Below are positions 1 through 37,997 of a stretch of DNA of 38,610 bases, piece after piece. A program made the position numbers and the translations under genes. Positions within the stretch are counted from its first letter, which is position 1. Each line of letters begins with the position of its first letter. The DNA comes from a virus. Location: IMG/VR virus record IMGVR_UViG_3300008221_000012, positions 1-38,610 of that record; one strand, given 5' to 3'. A model generated the notes under the pieces. That model searched no databases and was not told the DNA's origin. It was given only the letters and a program-made list of their open reading frames with translations.

Positions 1-3000
1 GTACCCATAATTATCGTAAACATCTTTAACTTCTTTACTTTCTTTGTCATTACCTAAGTATAACTTTACAGCTTTTCTAATAGACTTAGAAATAACAGGG
101 TTTACAGTCTTACGTCTTAATGGCAGTCCTATATGTTGTTTCTTACCATCTTTAGTACCTACTTGAGCAACAGCATAAACAGCACCTTCATTGAAGTCTT
201 TGTTCAATACAACATCAGATGTTTCAGTCTCTCTAGTATTGAATAATTTACCATTCTTTCCTATACCAAACTTAAGATTTTTGTCAGGAAAAGCATTAAT
301 AGTATCTATTTGTCTGTTGTCTTTTGTCTTAGCTAATACACCATAGTTCCTATTAGTAATTTTAATAGTTATTGGTTCAGTAGAATTAGCAATTGTATCT
401 CTAACTTCTTGAAGTTTCTTTTTCTGTACCTCGATATCACCTGCTACGTTATTCTCATTAATCCAATTTGTATCATGTAGATAAGCTACTTTCTTATTGT
501 TTTTAAGTATAACTATAGGTACTAGAGAATTTGTGGTTGTCTCACTAGCCTGTAATGATGAAAATGTAGCACTGTCGACGTTATATGATTTATCTAGTTG
601 GACAGTCAATTCATCACCTATTTGATATTCATTAGGATTAAGTATATTTTTATCTAGTAAATTCTCATTCAAAGAATCATCTATATCTTCCTTAGTTAAA
701 CTTTGTGTACCATCATTTAGAGTACTTATAACATCTTCATAACCACGTGACAAATAAGCAAGTATATTATATCCTGATACAACTCTACTATCTCCTTCGT
801 CTCTTTTTACAGGTTGATTATCTTCTGTATATTCGACATTATCAACAGATGTTTCTAAGTCACCGTCAATAGTCTCTTGTTCACCTTTAACAGTCTTATT
901 ATTATCTTCTGTATAAAATGTCTCTTTATCTAAATCACCATAAGTATCTGTAGCAGTTTGAGTATCTTGTTCATTCAAACCAAAGATACTATTTTGGATG
1001 TTATTCTCAATCTCTGCTTTTTTGTTCTGTAATATCTTATACTTTTCTTCATTAGGTGAAGTAGCGAAAGGTTGGTCAGGGTTATACACTTCTAACCATG
1101 TATCAATACTATCAGGTTGACTAAGTGCTAATTGAAACTCTTCATCATTTTTATATTTTGAATCATTATATACAGCAGGATCATTAGGATATTCAAACTC
1201 AGTAGTTGATTCTTCAGCTTCTGTAGGTTGTTCTGTAGGTTGTTCTGTTTCTTCTGTAGTATCTTTTTTACCAGTTACTTTCTCTTTAGCTTTTCTAACT
1301 ACCTCTTTAGCTTTCTCCTTAACAGACTTTTTAACTTCATCTTTCTTAACTTTCTCTGCTTCCTTCTTAGCTTCTTTTTCTTCCTTAGCTACTTCCTTTA
1401 AGTAATCAGCATTTAATTTCTCTTTATACTCAGGAGTATTAATCTCTTTAAGTTTCTCATCGTGAAAGTTAAGTGCTTCTTCTATAGCAATTTGTTCAGT
1501 TAATCCTTCTATAATAGCAGGATTGATCTTAGTAATAAGTTTCTCATTGAGACCTGCAAATTCAACAGTACCTTCATACTTTACTTTGTTCTCTTTTAAT
1601 CTTTGTTCTAAGTTAGGAACTCTATCAGCAAAACCAGCAGACTTTAACAACTCCATTGCATTATTAATTGCTTGTGCTTTTATAGTACCATCTAAACCTT
1701 TCTCTAAATTGTTTTGGTACACTCTGTCTTTAGATTTAGTATCTAAAACAGTACTATTTAATTTATCAGCTTGTTTAGAATGTCTAGTTATAGCTCTTTC
1801 AAGTTTGATTGACTCAGTGATTAAATGATTCTTTACAGTTTGTGTCTCATTACCTACAAAGAATTTGTTATAGTATTGTTTATATAAGTCTTCTGTTTGT
1901 AAGATAGTTTCTTTTAGCTTTATAACATTATCTTGAATCTTATCTGCATCAGCTAATCCAGCTTCTACTAACTGTTCACCAAATTGTGGTGTTTCTATTT
2001 GATTAAGTAATAAGTCAACGTTACCTACAGCACTAGCTCTCATAGCTAAATCAGTAGCCATTTCATCTTGTAATTGTGATACAGATTCAGCTTTTTGATT
2101 AGGTGTCGATTCTTCGTTATCTAAGATTTCTTTATGAGCTTGTTTATAACTATTTATAGTTTGCTTTCTTTGCTCAATCTCTTTTATTTTATTATCATCA
2201 GTGTTATCTTTATAACCTTGTGTTCTCTTTAGTAAACCAGTAGCACCGTCAAAGACTACACCACCTGCAACACCCCATGCCGCACTTTCATAAAAATGAC
2301 CATCAGTTAAATATCCTGACAATCTCTCACCAAAATTAGTATCTTTACCACCTGCTAGAGTCTTACCATAGTATTCACCCTCAGCACCGCCAATAAAGTT
2401 AATACCCTCTTCAATACCCTCTGTAGATTGTCTAGCAATAGGTGAAATAATAGGATTAAAATATCTACTTATCTTACTTACTTTAGTTACTTTACCAAAG
2501 CTGTCAAAACCATGTCCTTTAATTGCTTTATCTACTTTACTACTAACTACTTTGTTAGTTCTTGTACCAGCTTTGAAACCTTTAAATAAAGGTGCCATTT
2601 GTACCATATCAAAAACAATATTCGCACTATTCACTTTGTATGATCTCCAACCAGCTTTTGCAGCAATTAAATCAGCAACATTTTCCTTTGTTAAAGCTTT
2701 ACCGTTATTTCGTAGTTCTGTACCTAGTTCACTATCAATTACTTTTTGGAACTCTTCCTCGTTCTCAAATTGTTTCATTGCGAACTCTCTTGACTTGTGT
2801 GAAATAGATAAACTTTCAGTCATGTTTTCAGCATTACGCATAATAGCAGAAGAAGTTGACAACTTACTCCAATATTTAGCTGTATCACTAACTTTATCAG
2901 TGATCTTTAATACGTCTGAAATTAAACCTAATCCTTTAACACCAGCTGTAGCAGGTATCATTAGACCTATTGTACTTGATAAACTAACACCATTTTCAGC

Positions 3001-3543
3001 CCACCAACCAAAGTCACCAAAATCAAATGCTTTATCAGGGTTAGTTCTATAAATTTTACCGCTATCTTTAGCATATTCTTTAATACCCTCACCCCATTCA
3101 ATCAAAAAGTTATTAAAATCAGCACTTTCACCTGACATTTCATCTATAATAGCATCGGGTAATTCAAATATTGAACCAAGTCCACTAATACTACCACCAA
3201 CAATCTCTCCAAGCATCTGTTTACCTACACTACCAGCTTTTTCCCAGTTTGATTGATTGTTAGCTCTCGCCTGATTCAATTCATCAAGTTCTTTAGTAGC
3301 ACTAAACCCAGGAATATAAGGTTCGTATTCACTAATACCAACCTCAGTTTGTACACCTTCTTTTAACTGTGTTCTATTTCCAGAATGTTTCTGTAGTATA
3401 TCAGCAATAGAAGTGTCTTTTGTTTCCTTAGCGATTTCATCCTTCTCTAAACCATCAATACTGTATAGTGATTCGTCTGTAGGTTCAACACTTTCTAGTT
3501 TTGTATTAGCGTGTTTTTTTAAGATGTCGTTATAATCAGGCAT
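1..3543 (-). CDS. Giant cargo/ejection-type virion protein, C-terminus beyond window
   Basis: An open frame of 1181 codons runs from an ATG at 3543 past the left edge, so the real protein is longer. I do not recognise a catalytic domain. Visible features: two short related segments near the N-terminus (residues 7-11 DILKK, later DILQK), a hydrophobic Gly/Ala/Ser-rich stretch at about residues 178-205 with WWAENG just before it, long alpha-helical charged regions, a Lys/Glu-rich helix ending in a TEQPTEQPTE linker (around residues 760-785), then more globular sequence. It is the last visible gene of the late minus-strand block, after the muzzle and two other large proteins. In crAss-like phages this position holds giant virion proteins packaged in capsid or tail and ejected, some carrying RNA polymerase. 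The cargo role is inferred from position and size; no polymerase motif was seen in this part. Confidence 0.75.
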   Translation of the reverse strand, partial: MPDYNDILKKHANTKLESVEPTDESLYSIDGLEKDEIAKETKDTSIADILQKHSGNRTQLKEGVQTEVGISEYEPYIPGFSATKELDELNQARANNQSNWEKAGSVGKQMLGEIVGGSISGLGSIFELPDAIIDEMSGESADFNNFLIEWGEGIKEYAKDSGKIYRTNPDKAFDFGDFGWWAENGVSLSSTIGLMIPATAGVKGLGLISDVLKITDKVSDTAKYWSKLSTSSAIMRNAENMTESLSISHKSREFAMKQFENEEEFQKVIDSELGTELRNNGKALTKENVADLIAAKAGWRSYKVNSANIVFDMVQMAPLFKGFKAGTRTNKVVSSKVDKAIKGHGFDSFGKVTKVSKISRYFNPIISPIARQSTEGIEEGINFIGGAEGEYYGKTLAGGKDTNFGERLSGYLTDGHFYESAAWGVAGGVVFDGATGLLKRTQGYKDNTDDNKIKEIEQRKQTINSYKQAHKEILDNEESTPNQKAESVSQLQDEMATDLAMRASAVGNVDLLLNQIETPQFGEQLVEAGLADADKIQDNVIKLKETILQTEDLYKQYYNKFFVGNETQTVKNHLITESIKLERAITRHSKQADKLNSTVLDTKSKDRVYQNNLEKGLDGTIKAQAINNAMELLKSAGFADRVPNLEQRLKENKVKYEGTVEFAGLNEKLITKINPAIIEGLTEQIAIEEALNFHDEKLKEINTPEYKEKLNADYLKEVAKEEKEAKKEAEKVKKDEVKKSVKEKAKEVVRKAKEKVTGKKDTTEETEQPTEQPTEAEESTTEFEYPNDPAVYNDSKYKNDEEFQLALSQPDSIDTWLEVYNPDQPFATSPNEEKYKILQNKKAEIENNIQNSIFGLNEQDTQTATDTYGDLDKETFYTEDNNKTVKGEQETIDGDLETSVDNVEYTEDNQPVKRDEGDSRVVSGYNILAYLSRGYEDVISTLNDGTQSLTKEDIDDSLNENLLDKNILNPNEYQIGDELTVQLDKSYNVDSATFSSLQASETTTNSLVPIVILKNNKKVAYLHDTNWINENNVAGDIEVQKKKLQEVRDTIANSTEPITIKITNRNYGVLAKTKDNRQIDTINAFPDKNLKFGIGKNGKLFNTRETETSDVVLNKDFNEGAVYAVAQVGTKDGKKQHIGLPLRRKTVNPVISKSIRKAVKLYLGNDKESKEVKDVYDNYGY

Positions 3544-3636: not shown

Positions 3637-6600
3637 TTAAAGCTTAAAGACATTACCACCGCCTTCGACAATGCTCATCTCCTTTATTATATTGTACTTT
3701 TCAGTCTCCGTTAGAGATAACCAATCCTTGTTGGTAAAAACCTTTCCAAACTTCTCCTTTAGATAAGACCATCGAGGTTTACCACCACCAGTTGTAAATA
3801 TATTACTATTATCGGCTAGGGCTACCTTATCAAATTGTGAAACCAACTTGTCAACAGGACTACCACTACCTGTAAAAGTAGCTGTCGTATAAGTCTTATT
3901 CCCATCAGAACTACCAAATGTATCATTATTATCAACGTAATCTACACCCTCTACAAATCCAAGAGATTTAGCAACTGCTGTTGTCATAGCTAAAGGATTG
4001 TTATTTCTCAGTGAACGAGGAATAGATTTATCAATCTTTGTTGTAGTAAGACCATTATGTGTTTTAGTAATCTCTTCTAGAGCAGCTTCCATACTTGGTA
4101 AATCATAGAATACAGCATTACTTCTAGCATCACCTGTGTGTTGTGTTGTTATAGCACCTTTTCTACCAAACTGTAAAGAATCATTGTCTCTAGTTTGTGT
4201 TTCATTTAGGCTACCTTGTAAATCACTATTAATATTAAACTCTTCAACATTAACTGTATAGTAATCTTTACCATTAACTTTCTTTTTAATTACATTAGCT
4301 GATAAATCTGCACCTAAATTATACTGTTGCTTTTGTTCTTCACCTTCATATATCTTTGTTCTTCTAAATATATCTCCTTGTGATTCGATATCAGTTTGGA
4401 CAATAGCATCAGCATACTCAACACCATTACCATAAGTAGCATTTTCACCTTTTGCTAAATCCCATTTGTTGTAATCCTTTCTAAGAGAATTTTGAATAAC
4501 CATTCTAGCTTCTTGATTACTCTCTCTAGGTTTTAAAAGTATCTCTCTTCTCTCTCCTGTTTTCTCTAGTTTGCCAGTACTACTATTCTCTTTTGTTACG
4601 TCAACATAACCCTTCAACATTATACCTTGATTTGGTACAAAGTCTGTAGAACCTGTAATAGTAATATCATTTTGATTATACAATGGCGATTCATCACTAT
4701 CTAAGTTAGTTTGTTGTCCATCTTGATCGTATACTATATAACCATTTTTATTACGTTTAACGTGATTAGATAAAGTCTGACTTAAGAAAGATAACTTTTC
4801 AGGGTTTTTAACATTAGTACTAAAATCGAATACAGCAGGTTCATAAGCTTCATCAATCTTAGTATCTAAATACTTCTTAAATAAATCTTTATTTTCAAAA
4901 ATCTCATTAGTTTTATCCTTAGCTTTAACAGAAGAACTAACACCTTCTAATTCGTTTAATATATCTTTAGGTATTTTACCTTGACTTATTAAGTCTTTTA
5001 ATACAAAGTATTGTCTTCTTCCTTCACTATCACCATCACCAGTCTTTAAGTAATTAACTATCTCCTCTGTATCAAGATCTCTAACGTATGGAAGAGCACC
5101 ACCAATATGGAAAGCTTTACCTTCTAATGAAAATTCATCAAATATTGTATTTAGTTTCTTATCAATATTAGTTTTATCCTTTTCTATCTGTATTGATTTA
5201 CTATCTATACCATCAACTTTAGCATTATATTCGTCTTTGGATATTTTATTAGTTTCGTATAAGTGTTTCCAATACTGTTCATTAGATACTTCATTAAGAT
5301 AGTCACGTCTATTTTTATTAGTGTAAAACTGACTTAATAAATCCTCATTACTTTTCTTAGCTGTCTCAACGTCTTCAACACTAGCATTCTTATTATCAAT
5401 TATCTTATAATTATTAGTAATAGAACTTTCTAATGTCTTAAGACTAGAGTTTAAATCTTTAGTCTCATTTGTAATACCTAGTTCACCATTATTTTGAACT
5501 TCTGAATTAAGTTGTGTAGGGTTATGTATTTTAATACCATGAGAAGATAGTATATAAGCAGCTTTGTCCTTATTCTCTTCAGCTAGTTCGTCTTTCCTAG
5601 TTCTATTATACTTAATAGCCTCAGCTGAAATGAAATCTTTCTTACTACTTACATCCATTTCAGAGAATGATTGTCCAATAGCAGCAGGATCAATAAAACT
5701 ATCTACTTTTTTACCATACATTACAGCATCAAAGAAACTATCTAAATATCCTTCAGCTTCGAGGTCTTCAACTCTAACATCTTCACCAAAAGAACTTAAT
5801 GCTATTTGTAAGTCTTTATTATTTATTACATTAGATGCTTGTAGAGACCTAAAATCGTCTGAATTTAGAGGTCTATTAGGTTGTTCTTTTACACCTGTTC
5901 TTGTCATCTTCCATTTCAACAAATCATTCTCATACTTAATTTGTCCTTTGTAGTTCTCATTATTCATTATCATACCTCTCAAAGCACCTTGTATCTTATC
6001 AGGTTCAACACTCTTTAAAGTACCTTCATATAAATAACCTTTTTCTGTATGAATAATATAATCTCTAGTTCCATCTGTTTTATCTAACCATAAAGGTTCT
6101 TTTCCAGCCTTAACATCCTTAGCTAAATCCCACATCTCTTTACCTATGTCAATGTAATCACTAGGTCTATTAAGTCCATACGTACCTTCAAACTCTCCAG
6201 TTTCTTCGTTCATAGATACACCTTGATAACCTTCATCAGCTCTCATTATCTCATAGTTCATCCATTCTTTTGGAATCTTACCTTCAGCTGTAGCTTCTTG
6301 TAACTCAGCAACACCTGAATCTCTAGCTAGTTTATTTTGTTTAGCCTTATTTAAGGCACTATTCATTGCAAAACCTTTTGTAAGACTTCTTACCTTCTCG
6401 TCTGCATCTTCCCAATTATTCCCATAATCGAAATCATTTAAACCTTGTTTTATATTGCTAAATGCTTCTGACTTAATTTCATTATCATTATCATTATCTA
6501 ATACTTTAGTATTATACGCTAATATTTCTAATTTATCTGCATCACCTCTGTTACTTTTATGTCTATCATCTAATTCACTAGTCAATGCTTTTATCTCATT

Positions 6601-14534: not shown

Positions 14535-15407
14535 TTATAATTTTATTCTTCTACCAACTTTAATACCACTTTCATATAAGTCTAATAGATGTTTTTTATC
14601 TACATTAAAAGCTTGATTACTAAGTTTAGGTAGATATAATTTATGTTGTTCAACTTGGTATTTATCACACATTAAGTCCTCTACTAATTCGTCTTTTTTA
14701 GAGATAGTCAATAGAGCTATTTTTGCAGTTCTTCCAGCAGTAGCTACGACGTTACTTGGTTTCCACTCATCAAGAATGTTTGTTAAATCATCAGGTCTAG
14801 AGTATATAGATACATGAGTTTTAACCTCATCTTTAAACTTATCTATAGCCCATGCAGATAGTATTGTAGTTCTAATACCTCCATCTAAATGATAACCATT
14901 GTCAAGATGTACAGCTTCACCTAACATAGGAACACTAGAACTAGCCTTAACAATCTTTATAAACTTATGATAAGATACATTTTTTAAATTATATACAATT
15001 CTAGCTCCTGTTTTAAAGTCTGTAGTATTCACATAAGTAGCTGGGTAATTACCTGCTATGTACCTATTAAAAGTACCCTCACTTATGTATTTCTTAATAG
15101 TCGTTTCAAGGTTATCCATTACTGATATACTCTCTTTACTACTAACAACTCTAAGTATTGCTTTAAATGTTAACTTTCTTTTCTTATTAATAGGTTTAAC
15201 ACTGAATATAGAATCTAATGTTAAATCAACACTAGCAACTTTCAATGTCTCCCATAAACCCATAGCTACTAGTACAACCGCTAAAGCACTAGCAGAATTA
15301 CCAGTAATAATATCAGGTTTATAACCTTTTTCTACTACTACTGATCTTGCTATACCTACTAAACCACTAAGTTTTGTCTCTCCTCCTGATATTGATAATA
15401 TTTTCAT
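14535..15407 (-). CDS. Patatin-like phospholipase
   Basis: 290 residues with the patatin layout. A Gly-rich oxyanion-type loop SISGGETKLSG is at about residues 5-15. The nucleophile elbow GNSAS is at 36-40 with candidate catalytic Ser38. The block KASSSVPMLGEA (about 154-165) precedes YHLDGGIR, whose DGG at 175-177 supplies the dyad Asp. The elbow ends in Ser rather than the usual Gly of GxSxG, but the surrounding pattern is intact. Patatins are serine acyl hydrolases that cleave membrane phospholipids. No signal peptide or membrane span is seen. Lying among neck genes, it could be a virion component that acts on the membrane during DNA entry, or a late enzyme that helps lysis. Fold identification is strong; role and activity are inferred. 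Confidence 0.82.
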   Translation of the reverse strand: MKILSISGGETKLSGLVGIARSVVVEKGYKPDIITGNSASALAVVLVAMGLWETLKVASVDLTLDSIFSVKPINKKRKLTFKAILRVVSSKESISVMDNLETTIKKYISEGTFNRYIAGNYPATYVNTTDFKTGARIVYNLKNVSYHKFIKIVKASSSVPMLGEAVHLDNGYHLDGGIRTTILSAWAIDKFKDEVKTHVSIYSRPDDLTNILDEWKPSNVVATAGRTAKIALLTISKKDELVEDLMCDKYQVEQHKLYLPKLSNQAFNVDKKHLLDLYESGIKVGRRIKL

Positions 15408-32474: not shown

Positions 32475-32951
32475 TTATTCAACTATTATCCAATCTTCAA
32501 TTATAATATCCGTTTGATTAGCTAACCAAGGTATTAGACCGTTATCTACAGTTTTCATTGCAATATATGGCATTAATGTACCTTCAATGTCTGATAATTC
32601 GGCTATTGAATATTGTGTATTATGGTAAGGATTAATATATCTTAACCACATTCCTTTTCCATTCCATCCTTTTCTAGCTACTTTCTTACCTTGTTTAAGA
32701 GCTTCTATAGCTAATCCAAATGTCAAACCGTCAGTAGTTCTATATGCTTTTTCAAAAGCTTCTACAGGACTCCAAGAAATATATCCTTTATGATCAGGGT
32801 GATTAGCGTCTGTACTATCTACGTACTCTACTAAATAACCTTTTTTATTACCGTCTTCATCAGTAGGTAAATCCCATCCTCTGTACTTATTATATTCACC
32901 TAATGTCATAGGCTTTGCTAATAGTTGTTTTGTTCCAATGTAATTTTTCAT
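32475..32951 (-). CDS. tad2: Tad2-like anti-Thoeris protein (DUF2829) with N-terminal phage domain
   Basis: 158 residues. The C-terminal half (about 76-158) is a DUF2829 domain: LTFGLAIEALKQGKKVARKG, then WNGKGMWLRY, PYIAMKTVDNGLIPWLANQT, and DIIIEDWIIVE. Tad2 proteins of this family bind and sequester the cyclic ADP-ribose-type signal made by Thoeris TIR enzymes, blocking that defence. The N-terminal half (1-70; IGTKQLLAKPMTLGEYNKYRG, GYLVEYVD, YISWSPVEAFEKAY) is a separate small domain seen in phage proteins, and here it is fused to the Tad2 domain. The gene lies in the packaging module between a nuclease and the amidase. Domain identity is strong; anti-Thoeris activity of this copy is inferred. 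Confidence 0.82.
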   Translation of the reverse strand: MKNYIGTKQLLAKPMTLGEYNKYRGWDLPTDEDGNKKGYLVEYVDSTDANHPDHKGYISWSPVEAFEKAYRTTDGLTFGLAIEALKQGKKVARKGWNGKGMWLRYINPYHNTQYSIAELSDIEGTLMPYIAMKTVDNGLIPWLANQTDIIIEDWIIVE

Positions 32952-35915: not shown

Positions 35916-36354
35916 TGCTGTGAGTTCTTCTGCCTAAAGATACACTAATATATAGACAATAAACCGTAAAACCTAATTATGTATAGTCTTTATTTCATTA
36001 TTTTTAAATACCTCCAAATAGTAGAACCACCACGTCACTATTTTCTACATTACAGGCTGATACGCCAAATTTAATTTGAAATAATGTACGACAAAATTAG
36101 GATATGTCAGGAATTTCTTGTACCTTTAAATATCTTATTCAAGGTAACAAGAAAACACCACACCTATATACTACACCAATGTATATGGGATTTTTTATAC
36201 CCACTCGTGGAGTCACCAATGCACCATATACTATATAACAATTTATAGCAGTCCACATGGTGTTTATTATAGGTTCATCTTTGGTATCTAAAGTATCATC
36301 TTTTAGAGCACTCCAAATCCCATCCCAAATCCTACTCTAAATATTGAACAACTA

Positions 36355-36695
36355 TTTAGACTGCTCTACTTGGTGTCTAGCCGTTAATGAAAAAATGGTG
36401 TCACGGTGTCTCTATATAGTACAATCTACAATGGTGGTTTTACAAGTGTATAGAGTGGTATATAACTGGAGATTGTAAAGACTGTACAAGGTGGTGATAA
36501 TTGAGATTTTTAGACTGCTGATTGGAGACTATATAAAGTGAGATTCTGGAGACTATTCGACATGCCGACTTAGCGACTATTTGGAGACTTTACAACATGG
36601 TGAAATTGAGACTATTCGGAGACTCTACAAATGATAAATCGGGAGATATTAGACATAGATGACACAAGATATTAAACACAAGATATTAGGAGACT
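36355..36695 (+). repeat. One-orientation GACT / GGAGACT repeat array
   Basis: GACT occurs on the plus strand at 36359, 36480, 36513, 36527, 36551, 36567, 36575, 36586, 36610, 36621 and 36692; I saw no AGTC in 36361-36780. Five copies are GGAGACT (36524, 36548, 36583, 36618, 36689), with spacings 24, 35, 35 and 71. An 11-bp TTTAGACTGCT repeats at 36355-36365 and 36509-36519. GGTGTC occurs at 36372, 36397 and 36405. These look like protein-binding iterons or priming sites. Confidence 0.65.
36663..36688 (+). repeat. Tandem direct repeat CACAAGATATTA
   Basis: Two identical 12-bp copies (36663-36674 and 36677-36688) with a 14-bp period, followed directly by the last GGAGACT copy at 36689-36695. 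Fits a binding-site pair within the control region. Confidence 0.6.
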
Positions 36696-36828
36696 CTCTG
36701 GCATATATACTAGGCGACGTATTGGATGATGGTAAAGTGGATATAAAAAATAAAAATTTGTAGAAATAAAAGTGGGGATATATGTCGAAGCGAGAACCAC
36801 CTCCATTCATCCCCCCTCACTAAATTTT

Positions 36829-36860
36829 GGATTGAATCACCCCGATGGTGTTTTTAATCC
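36829..36860 (+). promoter_or_regulatory. Leader hairpin upstream of the SSB-like gene
   Basis: Bases 36829-36841 pair with 36847-36860 (GGATTGAATCACC with GGTGTTTTTAATCC), leaving a small internal mismatch and a CCGAT loop. It lies about 70 bases before the start codon. It could be a control element in the leader RNA. There is no T-run beyond it, so it does not look like a classical terminator. Confidence 0.35.
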
Positions 36861-36931
36861 TCAAAATCTACTTATAACGAATAGGTAGTAGAATAATATA
36901 ATAACTTATTAACTTTTAAACTTTAAGACTT

Positions 36932-37360
36932 ATGAAAAATGTAACATTAACAATCAAAGAAATTCAAATTAACGCTGACGGTACTGGTGTAATTGTAACA
37001 AACAAATCAGCAGACAATCCAAGTGCTACTGGTGTATTCAAACAATCTAGTGGACAACTAGCTAGACTAGCTACTAGATGTGGTGCACCAAATGCTTTCG
37101 TATTAAAGCTTTTAGTACAGACTGGTGGTAGTACTATGTCAATGGATGTAGAGAATGTGAAAGCTGGGGATACTTATATTAAGAAGGACGGCGAAGAAGG
37201 AGTATACGGAAAAGACTTTCCAAAGAATACTAATGAATCTATTGCATTGAGTACTAGAGCTACTAATCAATTGATTGATGTAGCAATGCGTCAAGCAATA
37301 GCTCAACCAAGTGCTCCTGTAGCATCTGCTGATAAAGGTGATGATGATATGCCTTTCTAA
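36932..37360 (+). CDS. SSB-like protein with acidic DDDMPF C-terminal tip
   Basis: 142 residues. The C-terminus ends ADKGDDDMPF, closely matching the acidic Phe-ending tip of bacterial single-stranded DNA-binding proteins (DDDIPF), preceded by a Pro/Ala/Ser-rich flexible linker (about 122-135). The N-terminal 110 residues are beta-rich (VTLTIKEIQINADGTGVIVT, FVLKLLVQTGGSTMSMDVEN), compatible with an OB-type domain but not an obvious match to cellular SSB. First gene of the plus-strand unit next to the putative origin, the place for an early replication protein. The tip in cellular SSBs recruits replication and repair partners. Start ATG follows an A/T-rich leader. SSB function is inferred. 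Confidence 0.65.
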   Translation: MKNVTLTIKEIQINADGTGVIVTNKSADNPSATGVFKQSSGQLARLATRCGAPNAFVLKLLVQTGGSTMSMDVENVKAGDTYIKKDGEEGVYGKDFPKNTNESIALSTRATNQLIDVAMRQAIAQPSAPVASADKGDDDMPF

Positions 37361-37402
37361 TATCATTTAAATAATAAACATTTACCCAATCATAGAGGGT
37401 TG

Positions 37403-37524
37403 AGGTGCAAATTAATAAAGTTAAACAATCAGTAGAATATAATGTGTACATAGGTAAAGAAATGTACAACAAGTTATATTCTACCAACTAACCAAGAGAG
37501 GCTGACGAACTTTATTAATCACCT
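37403..37524 (+). ncRNA. Structured RNA candidate, rod with large internal bubble
   Basis: Perfect complementarity brackets the segment: AGGTG (37403-37407) with CACCT (37520-37524), a 3-nt bulge, then ATTAATAAAGTT (37411-37422) with AACTTTATTAAT (37508-37519). Inside are GTAGAATATAA (37432-37442) with TTATATTCTAC (37474-37484) and TGTACAT (37445-37451) with ATGTACA (37462-37468), capped by a 10-nt loop. Between outer and inner stems lie unpaired strands of 9 nt (37423-37431) and 23 nt (37485-37507). No open reading frame uses this stretch well. I do not recognise the family; the rod-bubble-rod layout recalls 6S-type RNA but no sequence match is claimed. Confidence 0.6.
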
Positions 37525-37532
37525 GAGTAATT

Positions 37533-37549
37533 CAAGGATGAGAACCTTG
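37533..37549 (+). other. Small hairpin 3' of the structured RNA
   Basis: CAAGG (37533-37537) pairs with CCTTG (37545-37549) around a 7-nt ATGAGAA loop, between the structured RNA candidate and the long terminator-like hairpin. It may belong to the same RNA. Confidence 0.4.
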
Positions 37550-37558
37550 TAAGTGTTT

Positions 37559-37603
37559 ATAATAACTATGCTATAGGTAATACTATAGTGTAGTTATTGT
37601 TTT
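37559..37603 (+). terminator. Terminator-like hairpin before the 27-aa peptide gene
   Basis: AATAACTATGCTATAG (37561-37576) pairs with CTATAGTGTAGTTATT (37583-37598): 14 Watson-Crick and 2 G-T pairs, loop GTAATA, followed by TTTT at 37600-37603. It is AT-rich, so termination may be partial. It would end the SSB-structured RNA transcript or attenuate the genes beyond. Confidence 0.6.
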
Positions 37604-37624
37604 AATACCTAAATACTGCTTATT

Positions 37625-37708
37625 ATGAATGAATCTAAGATACATTTTATGCTTGGGATACTTGCAGGTGCTATGAGCACTGTAACTATACTTATAGCTT
37701 TTGTTTAA
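37625..37708 (+). CDS. 27-residue single-span membrane peptide
   Basis: ATG at 37625, TAA at 37706-37708. The peptide starts MNESKIHFML, continues with a Gly/Ala/Thr-containing hydrophobic run (GILAGAMSTVTILIAFV) and stops directly after it: a short polar N-terminus and one membrane span of about 19 residues. It lies 21 bases beyond the terminator-like hairpin and just before the next small gene. Such peptides occur as phage exclusion factors, holin modulators and type I toxins; nothing here picks one. Translation is plausible from the ATG and leader but unproven. Confidence 0.5.
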   Translation: MNESKIHFMLGILAGAMSTVTILIAFV

Positions 37709-37727
37709 CCAACTAATTTACCACATT

Positions 37728-37997
37728 ATGTCAAATAATAAAGAACCAAAGAAAATAAATAGAGTATTACCTAGGATTAGAGTAGTATATACTGATGGTA
37801 TTGTTGATGTCAATAATAGTGACGTTAATAATATTGAAAATAATAGTGATTTCATACCTGCTGTGTTCAACAGAGGTGATATCAAAGCAATACCTCATTT
37901 AGTTGAGGTTAGAGGATATATTCGTAAGGGTGTGTTCCACATTGAGAAATGGTACAATAACAAGTTTACCATAAATGAAATGATAGCTTGTAACTAA
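37728..37997 (+). CDS. Small unidentified protein (89 aa)
   Basis: I chose the ATG at 37728 (MSNNKEPKKINRVLPRIRVV) over an upstream TTG at 37701, because the ATG avoids overlap with the 27-aa gene and has an A/T-rich leader. 89 residues: a basic N-terminus, a polar Asn/Asp linker (NNSDVNNIENNSD, about 30-43), then a compact C-terminal part (FIPAVFNRGDIKAIPHLVEV, GYIRKGVFHIEKWYNN) resembling a small beta-barrel, possibly SH3-like. Not assigned. It overlaps the next gene by one base (TAATG). Confidence 0.6.
   Translation: MSNNKEPKKINRVLPRIRVVYTDGIVDVNNSDVNNIENNSDFIPAVFNRGDIKAIPHLVEVRGYIRKGVFHIEKWYNNKFTINEMIACN

Follow-up and report, generated by a model that had tools for sequence, protein, structure and literature searches.

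A nested-stem element in the gap after the SSB-like gene of a crAss-like phage, and strong folds that recur at its position among relatives

Intrinsic (Rho-independent) terminators, the RNase III sites of phage T7 (R1.1 type) and 6S RNA (6S-1 type, the Rfam 6S families) are the described systems closest to the locus reported here. With intrinsic terminators the locus shares strong hairpins right after a stop codon, the last of them a U-tailed hairpin of 18 bp (positions 37559-37600). The nested-stem element at 37403-37524 differs from a terminator in having a large asymmetric bubble and no U-tail, and it is an extra piece ahead of the terminator-like hairpin. The bubbles of T7 RNase III sites are smaller than the 9 and 23 nt of the element, although both have helices around an internal bubble and both lie between early genes; here a terminator-like hairpin also follows downstream, and cleavage is only hypothetical. 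RNase III cuts the early RNA of T7 at five sites (PMC4858673). The likeness to 6S RNA is one of outline only, a closing stem, a bubble and an apical stem (PMC8876501). 6S RNA is ~200 nt long, whereas the closed fold of the element spans 122 nt, gave no 6S match in Rfam at E<=10, belongs by gene order to an mRNA 3' region and has a bubble that can largely pair on the opposite strand.

The sequence of the window, that is, the whole stretch of 38,610 nt that was analyzed, occurs unchanged within IMG/VR contig 3300025266_000004 (81,336 bp). A terminal repeat of 1,949 bp in that contig points to a circular genome of 79,387 bp. To judge by its genes, the phage is an uncultured crAss-like phage, because its capsid protein matches the Crassvirus family and its terminase points the same way, being ~33-37% identical to those of named crAss-like and Flavobacterium phages. 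The structural genes run leftward and the ORFs of the early/replication arm mostly rightward, and the two are divided by a noncoding, repeat-bearing region with a turn in GC skew (35916-36931). Within this divergent region, near the skew turn, diverged direct repeats around GGAGACTATT (36451-36697) are possibly a replication origin or regulatory repeats. A tRNA/tmRNA search of the window found none. Elsewhere in the same phage, at window-frame 41695-41796 (L017:17994-18095, - strand), Rfam identified a tRNA gene (37.8 bits) that ARAGORN missed and that, from its long variable region, we take to resemble tRNA-Leu. A further noncoding stretch at window-frame 40686-40832 (L017:18958-19104, - strand) is closed by a 14-bp perfect inverted repeat; by eye it contains a piece like a tRNA T-arm, and its gain in stability over shuffles is modest on either strand (z -2.2 and -3.1). 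Other genes observed on the - strand of the window encode a protein with a Tad2-like (Thoeris anti-defence 2) domain (32475-32951, Pfam E 1.2e-24) and, amid the structural genes, a patatin-like phospholipase domain (14535-15407, Pfam E 3.8e-14).

The first gene of the rightward early arm (36932-37360, + strand) encodes a 142-aa SSB-like protein whose acidic tail, ending in GDDDMPF, resembles the SSB tip. Pfam and PHROG searches with this protein gave no match, nor did tblastn against phages with it and the SSB-like proteins of two relatives. Its predicted model (pLDDT 78, from three sequences) has OB-type neighbours, including the yeast Cdc13 OB domain, PrgE and Rim1, at Z 3.8-5.0, values that are weak, as the comparison tool warns that Z <8 may reflect merely a common arrangement. 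From the stop codon at 37360, a gap of 264 nt extends to a 27-aa ORF, small membrane-protein-like by eye (37625-37708, + strand), in agreement with the initial annotation, which had placed the element downstream of an SSB-like gene in about 260 gene-free bases. The gap holds, in order, a weak local hairpin (37384-37402, + strand), the element and the 18-bp U-tailed hairpin. In two relatives, L023 and L104, a small membrane-like ORF also follows the SSB-like gene, without sequence match to the ORF in the window.

The fold of the element is exactly as first described from inspection of the sequence. A closing helix of 5 bp (37403-37407/37520-37524) and 12 bp (37411-37422/37508-37519) leads to a bubble of 9 nt on the 5' side (37423-37431) and 23 nt on the 3' side (37485-37507), beyond which lie an 11-bp helix (37432-37442/37474-37484) and a 7-bp terminal hairpin (37445-37451/37462-37468), all four stems being Watson-Crick throughout. 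In a predicted SSB-to-terminator transcript, the mean pair probabilities of the 5-, 12-, 11- and 7-bp stems are 0.77, 0.90, 0.98 and 0.92. Shuffling bore out the view that such pairing is unlikely to be chance. The 122 nt fold at -31.0 kcal/mol versus a mean of -14.8 (sd 3.0) for dinucleotide shuffles, a z of -5.3 to -5.5; none of 1,000 shuffles was as stable, the best reaching -25.8. With longer flanks (37390-37530) z was -3.6, and 0 of 200 shuffles equalled it. When the spacer 37361-37625 was dinucleotide-shuffled 20,000 times, perfect inverted repeats of 12 bp or longer arose in 143 cases and a nested pair of 12 and 11 bp in none. Strong folds do occur elsewhere in this genome. Among 2,266 segments of 140 nt scored on both strands with six shuffles each, the one closest to the element truncates it and came 25th for the + strand and 4th for the - strand, several of the better ones lying inside genes. 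The genome also has 23 perfect inverted repeats of at least 11 bp within 130 nt, versus 4-11 in 20 shuffles, and two of them are the nested pair of the element.

One detail of the initial annotation did not hold up, a pseudoknot between 37397-37401 and 37490-37493. It would comprise 4 bp and one wobble, and it is not supported because 37397-37402 is predicted to pair instead with 37384-37391 in the small local hairpin, in two alternative helices (ACCC/GGGU or CAAUC/GGUUG, probabilities of about 0.56 and 0.38) that cover the proposed pseudoknot strand. Two other readings of the element were considered and set aside. A 28-codon ORF with a GTG start (37405-37491) fills much of it; an ORF of equal length appeared in 778 of 3,000 shuffled spacers, tblastn found no phage match, and among the matches listed for the loci collected none was convincing, the best outside the phage itself having an E of 0.38. 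The sequence CUGACGA at 37502-37508 is hammerhead-like, but the adjacent core strand misfits and no ribozyme family was among the Rfam matches listed.

The element had been called an undescribed-looking structured RNA, and our searches are in keeping with this. At gathering score, it matched no Rfam family. A search of 37330-37640 with permissive filters listed nine matches at E<=10, and the best sub-threshold family touching the element was S15-Flavobacteria (37353-37415, - strand), at 26.9 bits versus the 46.5 needed (E 0.12). With the region and with the element as queries, blastn returned no matches or chance-level ones, and across 50,697 phage and 72,556 plasmid records the element gave chance-level partial matches only. 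A covariance model built from the element alone (two identical rows) recovered, at E<0.01, only the phage's own copies among 30 sources, 51 stretches sharing AGAGAGGCTGACGAA and 63 more loci, and found nothing at that threshold in 296 genomes of the phylum of assembly G021 (Zeaxanthinibacter), a search run without a positive control. The nearest phage among the loci collected, L023 (to which L024 and L025 are 99.8% identical), has a terminase 62% and an SSB-like protein 56% identical to those in the window; the SSB-like protein of L120 is 31% identical. In L023 the SSB-like gene is followed by a gap of 126 nt that contains a short hairpin and nothing recognisable from the element. Away from that gap, L023 has other intergenic nested hairpins on its - strand, at 4985-5100 and 3845-3925, with closing stems of 12 and 14 bp and z of -4.0 and -5.5.

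Presence in this phage and absence from the same gap in L023 and L104 would suit a single insertion of a MITE-like hairpin with no role, as would the long terminal inverted repeat (ends GGTG...CACC) and the TGAG on both sides (37401-37404 and 37524-37527). We consider such an insertion very unlikely. A 4-bp repeat is weak evidence, and the element is present in one copy where more than one would be expected: there is no second full copy in the phage, in the loci of its relatives or in 31 further viral stretches that have the left end in common with it, and the phage, plasmid and bacterial collections searched above contain none beyond the chance-level partial matches.

The U-tailed hairpin downstream of the element is probably the terminator of the SSB transcript. 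It was found in a scan for stems followed by a U-tail (18 bp, + strand, 5 T in 8, with TTGTTTTAAT continuing from the stem end), and it has the GC-containing stem-loop and U-rich tail of an intrinsic terminator. Its fold reaches -20.8 kcal/mol (z -5.65) on the + strand versus -12.0 (z -3.80) on the - strand, as expected for a rightward terminator, and the surrounding 37525-37625 folds at z -4.6. A scan with a terminator consensus did not report it, so it is not a strong terminator match. The stem of the element itself is followed by GAGTAATT rather than by a U-tail. From gene order we infer that the element lies inside the SSB transcription unit, ahead of the terminator-like hairpin.

This position bears on the suggestion, made when the element was first noted, that it is a 6S-like RNA diverting the host RNA polymerase. 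The topology stands on the + strand, which forms a rod with a central bubble between helical arms; on the - strand the bubble largely closes. The role finds no such footing. 6S families were absent from the nine Rfam matches listed at E<=10 for 37330-37640 and from those at gathering score over the window, a sigma-70-type scan of the + strand (36850-37760) found no promoter-like site, although a dedicated promoter read by the phage polymerase is possible, and the element has no homolog in our searches and sits within the SSB unit. The phage also has a polymerase-like giant protein of its own. The giant ORF (1-3543, - strand) extends beyond the window (L016:233-11005), and followed round the circle it probably measures ~4,880 aa by arithmetic, not having been translated through. 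Part of it matches PDB 6vr4, 'DNA-dependent RNA polymerase' (E 5.5e-44), which we take to be the phi14:2 virion polymerase; its PHROG hit is to 'virion structural protein' only. According to a review (PMC10136315), early and middle genes of Crassvirales are transcribed by the virion polymerase and late genes by the host enzyme. Trapping the host polymerase would thus be expected to hurt the phage's own late genes. A stand-alone small RNA, released from the SSB message or independent of it and including a polymerase trap of the 6S kind, therefore seems very doubtful to us, even with a 6S-like rod and a terminator-like hairpin downstream.

The flanking of an asymmetric bubble by long helices between early genes, for which the T7 early RNA is a precedent, also raises an RNase III-type processing site. 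Cleavage at the bubble or stem would part the SSB mRNA from the downstream mRNA within a polycistronic early message. By this analogy such a site would have a smaller bubble, as at the T7 sites mentioned above, and here a terminator-like hairpin already lies downstream; the exact shape, moreover, was not found elsewhere in the loci searched. We therefore regard a processing site as unlikely.

The two strands of the element do not fold equally well. On the - strand the minimum free energy is -38.1 kcal/mol (z -6.5), compared with -31.0 (z about -5.5) on the + strand, and this is because six further contiguous pairs next to the 11-bp stem (37426-37431/37485-37490; two Watson-Crick and four G-U) form only there. 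With shuffled bubble strands, 0.41% of trials gave an extension of this kind, a share that rises to 0.79% when any helix end and strand is allowed. The greater stability of the - strand is the main evidence against reading the element as part of the SSB 3' UTR, and among the 18 relatives no more than 13 fold better on the early strand. The strand difference of the element favours instead an antisense or leftward RNA, in which the - strand, as a rod of 17, 17 and 9 bp with a three-way junction, would regulate SSB or the SSB 3' end. We think this improbable: the - strand has no sigma-70-type site in 37525-37760, TANNTTTG, which we take to be the Bacteroidota promoter consensus, is absent from both strands in 36850-37800, no U-tail follows 37403 on the - strand, and the neighbouring ORFs run mostly rightward.

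The sequence of the element is confined to this phage in our searches, and a strong fold at its position recurs among relatives. Relatives were collected by terminase alignment (the best 80 of at least 461 viral loci, the phage itself among them), with 16 additional terminase-aligned loci from bacterial genome assemblies. An SSB-like gene was sought in 31 loci; five gave no pick (L038, L049, L056, L094, L115), and eight of the 26 picks were discarded on visual inspection, their ORF not being SSB-like (L034, L040, L047, L059, L067, L072, L103, L105). Over the first 110 nt beyond the SSB-like stop codon, 16 of the 18 relatives have a fold with z < -2, and eight have one with z < -3. The corresponding counts are 16 and 12 of 60 for the ends of other early genes and 37 and 21 of 188 for late genes (Mann-Whitney p 4.9e-5 and 8.1e-8, respectively), where the controls, taken from the ends of other ORFs 80 aa or longer, are unmatched for intergenic gap length, and the relatives are not independent of one another. 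The exceptions are the nearest relative, L023 (z -1.02), and L028 (z -1.97). In the window, the first 110 nt after the stop cut the element and give z -0.75; the gap as a whole does fold more strongly than chance, both in the element (z -5.3) and in 37525-37625. When SSB-like loci were instead matched by family, with two protein alignments, 29 of 32 had z < -2; 11 of these loci are on contigs already counted among the 18 relatives, several are near-duplicates, and four of the contigs discarded above were regained through their family-matched gene (L203, L206, L201, L193). By eye, the folded stretch in L207 and L208 reads as a downstream coding ORF.

Many of these folds have the form of a terminator. 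In 34 non-redundant loci, the window included (40 less six near-duplicates), U-tailed stems with 12 or more uninterrupted base pairs were present within 320 nt in 15 and within 150 nt in 12, versus means of 0.1 and 0.0 over 20 rounds of shuffling. A stem of at least 8 bp with a U-tail was found in 22 (shuffle mean 4.5, maximum 12) and was lacking in the other 12; some of the U-tailed hits are beyond the next small ORF (e.g., L023, L104) or in coding sequence. Long nested folds were observed in L060/L183, L069/L189 and L074/L186. The two-part layout seen in the window, in which a nested fold precedes a distinct U-tailed hairpin, is evident in L069/L189 (stem of 16 bp in L069) and weaker in L074, where the second stem has 5 bp before the U run. 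In a trio of close relatives aligned at the hairpin, three of 13 pairs are preserved through changes of both partners, and six are broken in one sequence; a second trio has no both-side change. In L210 (from 1954, right after the SSB-like stop), a 15-bp hairpin is followed within the SSB gap by what looks by eye like the start of a tRNA.

Gut phages were compared over the 110 nt after their presumed first early gene, whose correspondence to the SSB-like gene rests on position and on a Foldseek match of the window SSB model to a 189-aa cr8_1 protein (E 2.3e-4; the length is that of gp54). Comparing the profiles of the window SSB and cr8_1 gp54 gave no significant result. The values of z were -5.5 in cr8_1, -4.0 in the cultured crAss002, -4.4 in cr271_1 and -0.2 in jaberico; the jaberico value, which was kept in the count, comes from a gene that has an HNH endonuclease annotation and is probably not the SSB-like one. 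Downstream of gp80, the presumed first early gene of crAss002 (L250), we noted a repeat-bearing structured region of more than 200 nt.

Overall, we favour the reading that 37403-37524 is part of the 3' UTR of the SSB-like mRNA, an elaborated fold before the terminator, and we hold it with about even confidence. The lack of any homolog of the element in our searches and its want of a U-tail count against this reading, together with the strand difference. Most of the relatives examined have hairpins at this position, and the element appears to be the form they take in one lineage; it is real and structurally unusual in its details, and most likely an ordinary kind of element, elaborated. In this phage group, the first early gene would usually be followed directly by at least one strong hairpin, often an intrinsic terminator, that fixes the 3' end of the first message, and such hairpins would be free to vary in sequence provided that folding persists. 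The gap may have been enlarged in the lineage of the window, with the nested-stem element coming first and the plain terminator-like hairpin next. A polymerase leaving the SSB-like gene would then traverse the folded region and stop at ~37603. The bulky fold may help to define the mRNA end or protect it against exonucleases, or a double-strand nuclease may trim it; it could also aid termination, pausing or processing. A broader proposal makes the post-SSB gap of crAss-like phages a permanent home for noncoding RNAs that evolve fast, each lineage having its own, cut from the SSB message or made from the opposite strand, with 37403-37524 as the present case and a role in host takeover or SSB timing. 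We judge this unlikely.

Taken by itself, the element is probably an mRNA tail of elaborate form, and what is useful here is the positional pattern. The available portion of a paper on gut Bacteroidales phages (PMC12118408) contains nothing on phage terminators, and among the matches listed from the open-licence literature we did not find the pattern described. Strong, fast-changing folds, often clear terminators, lie directly 3' of the first early gene in most of the crAss-like phages examined. This pattern leads to a testable idea of how the first message is ended in these abundant phages, which carry an RNA polymerase of their own, and cultured members such as crAss002 permit a direct test.
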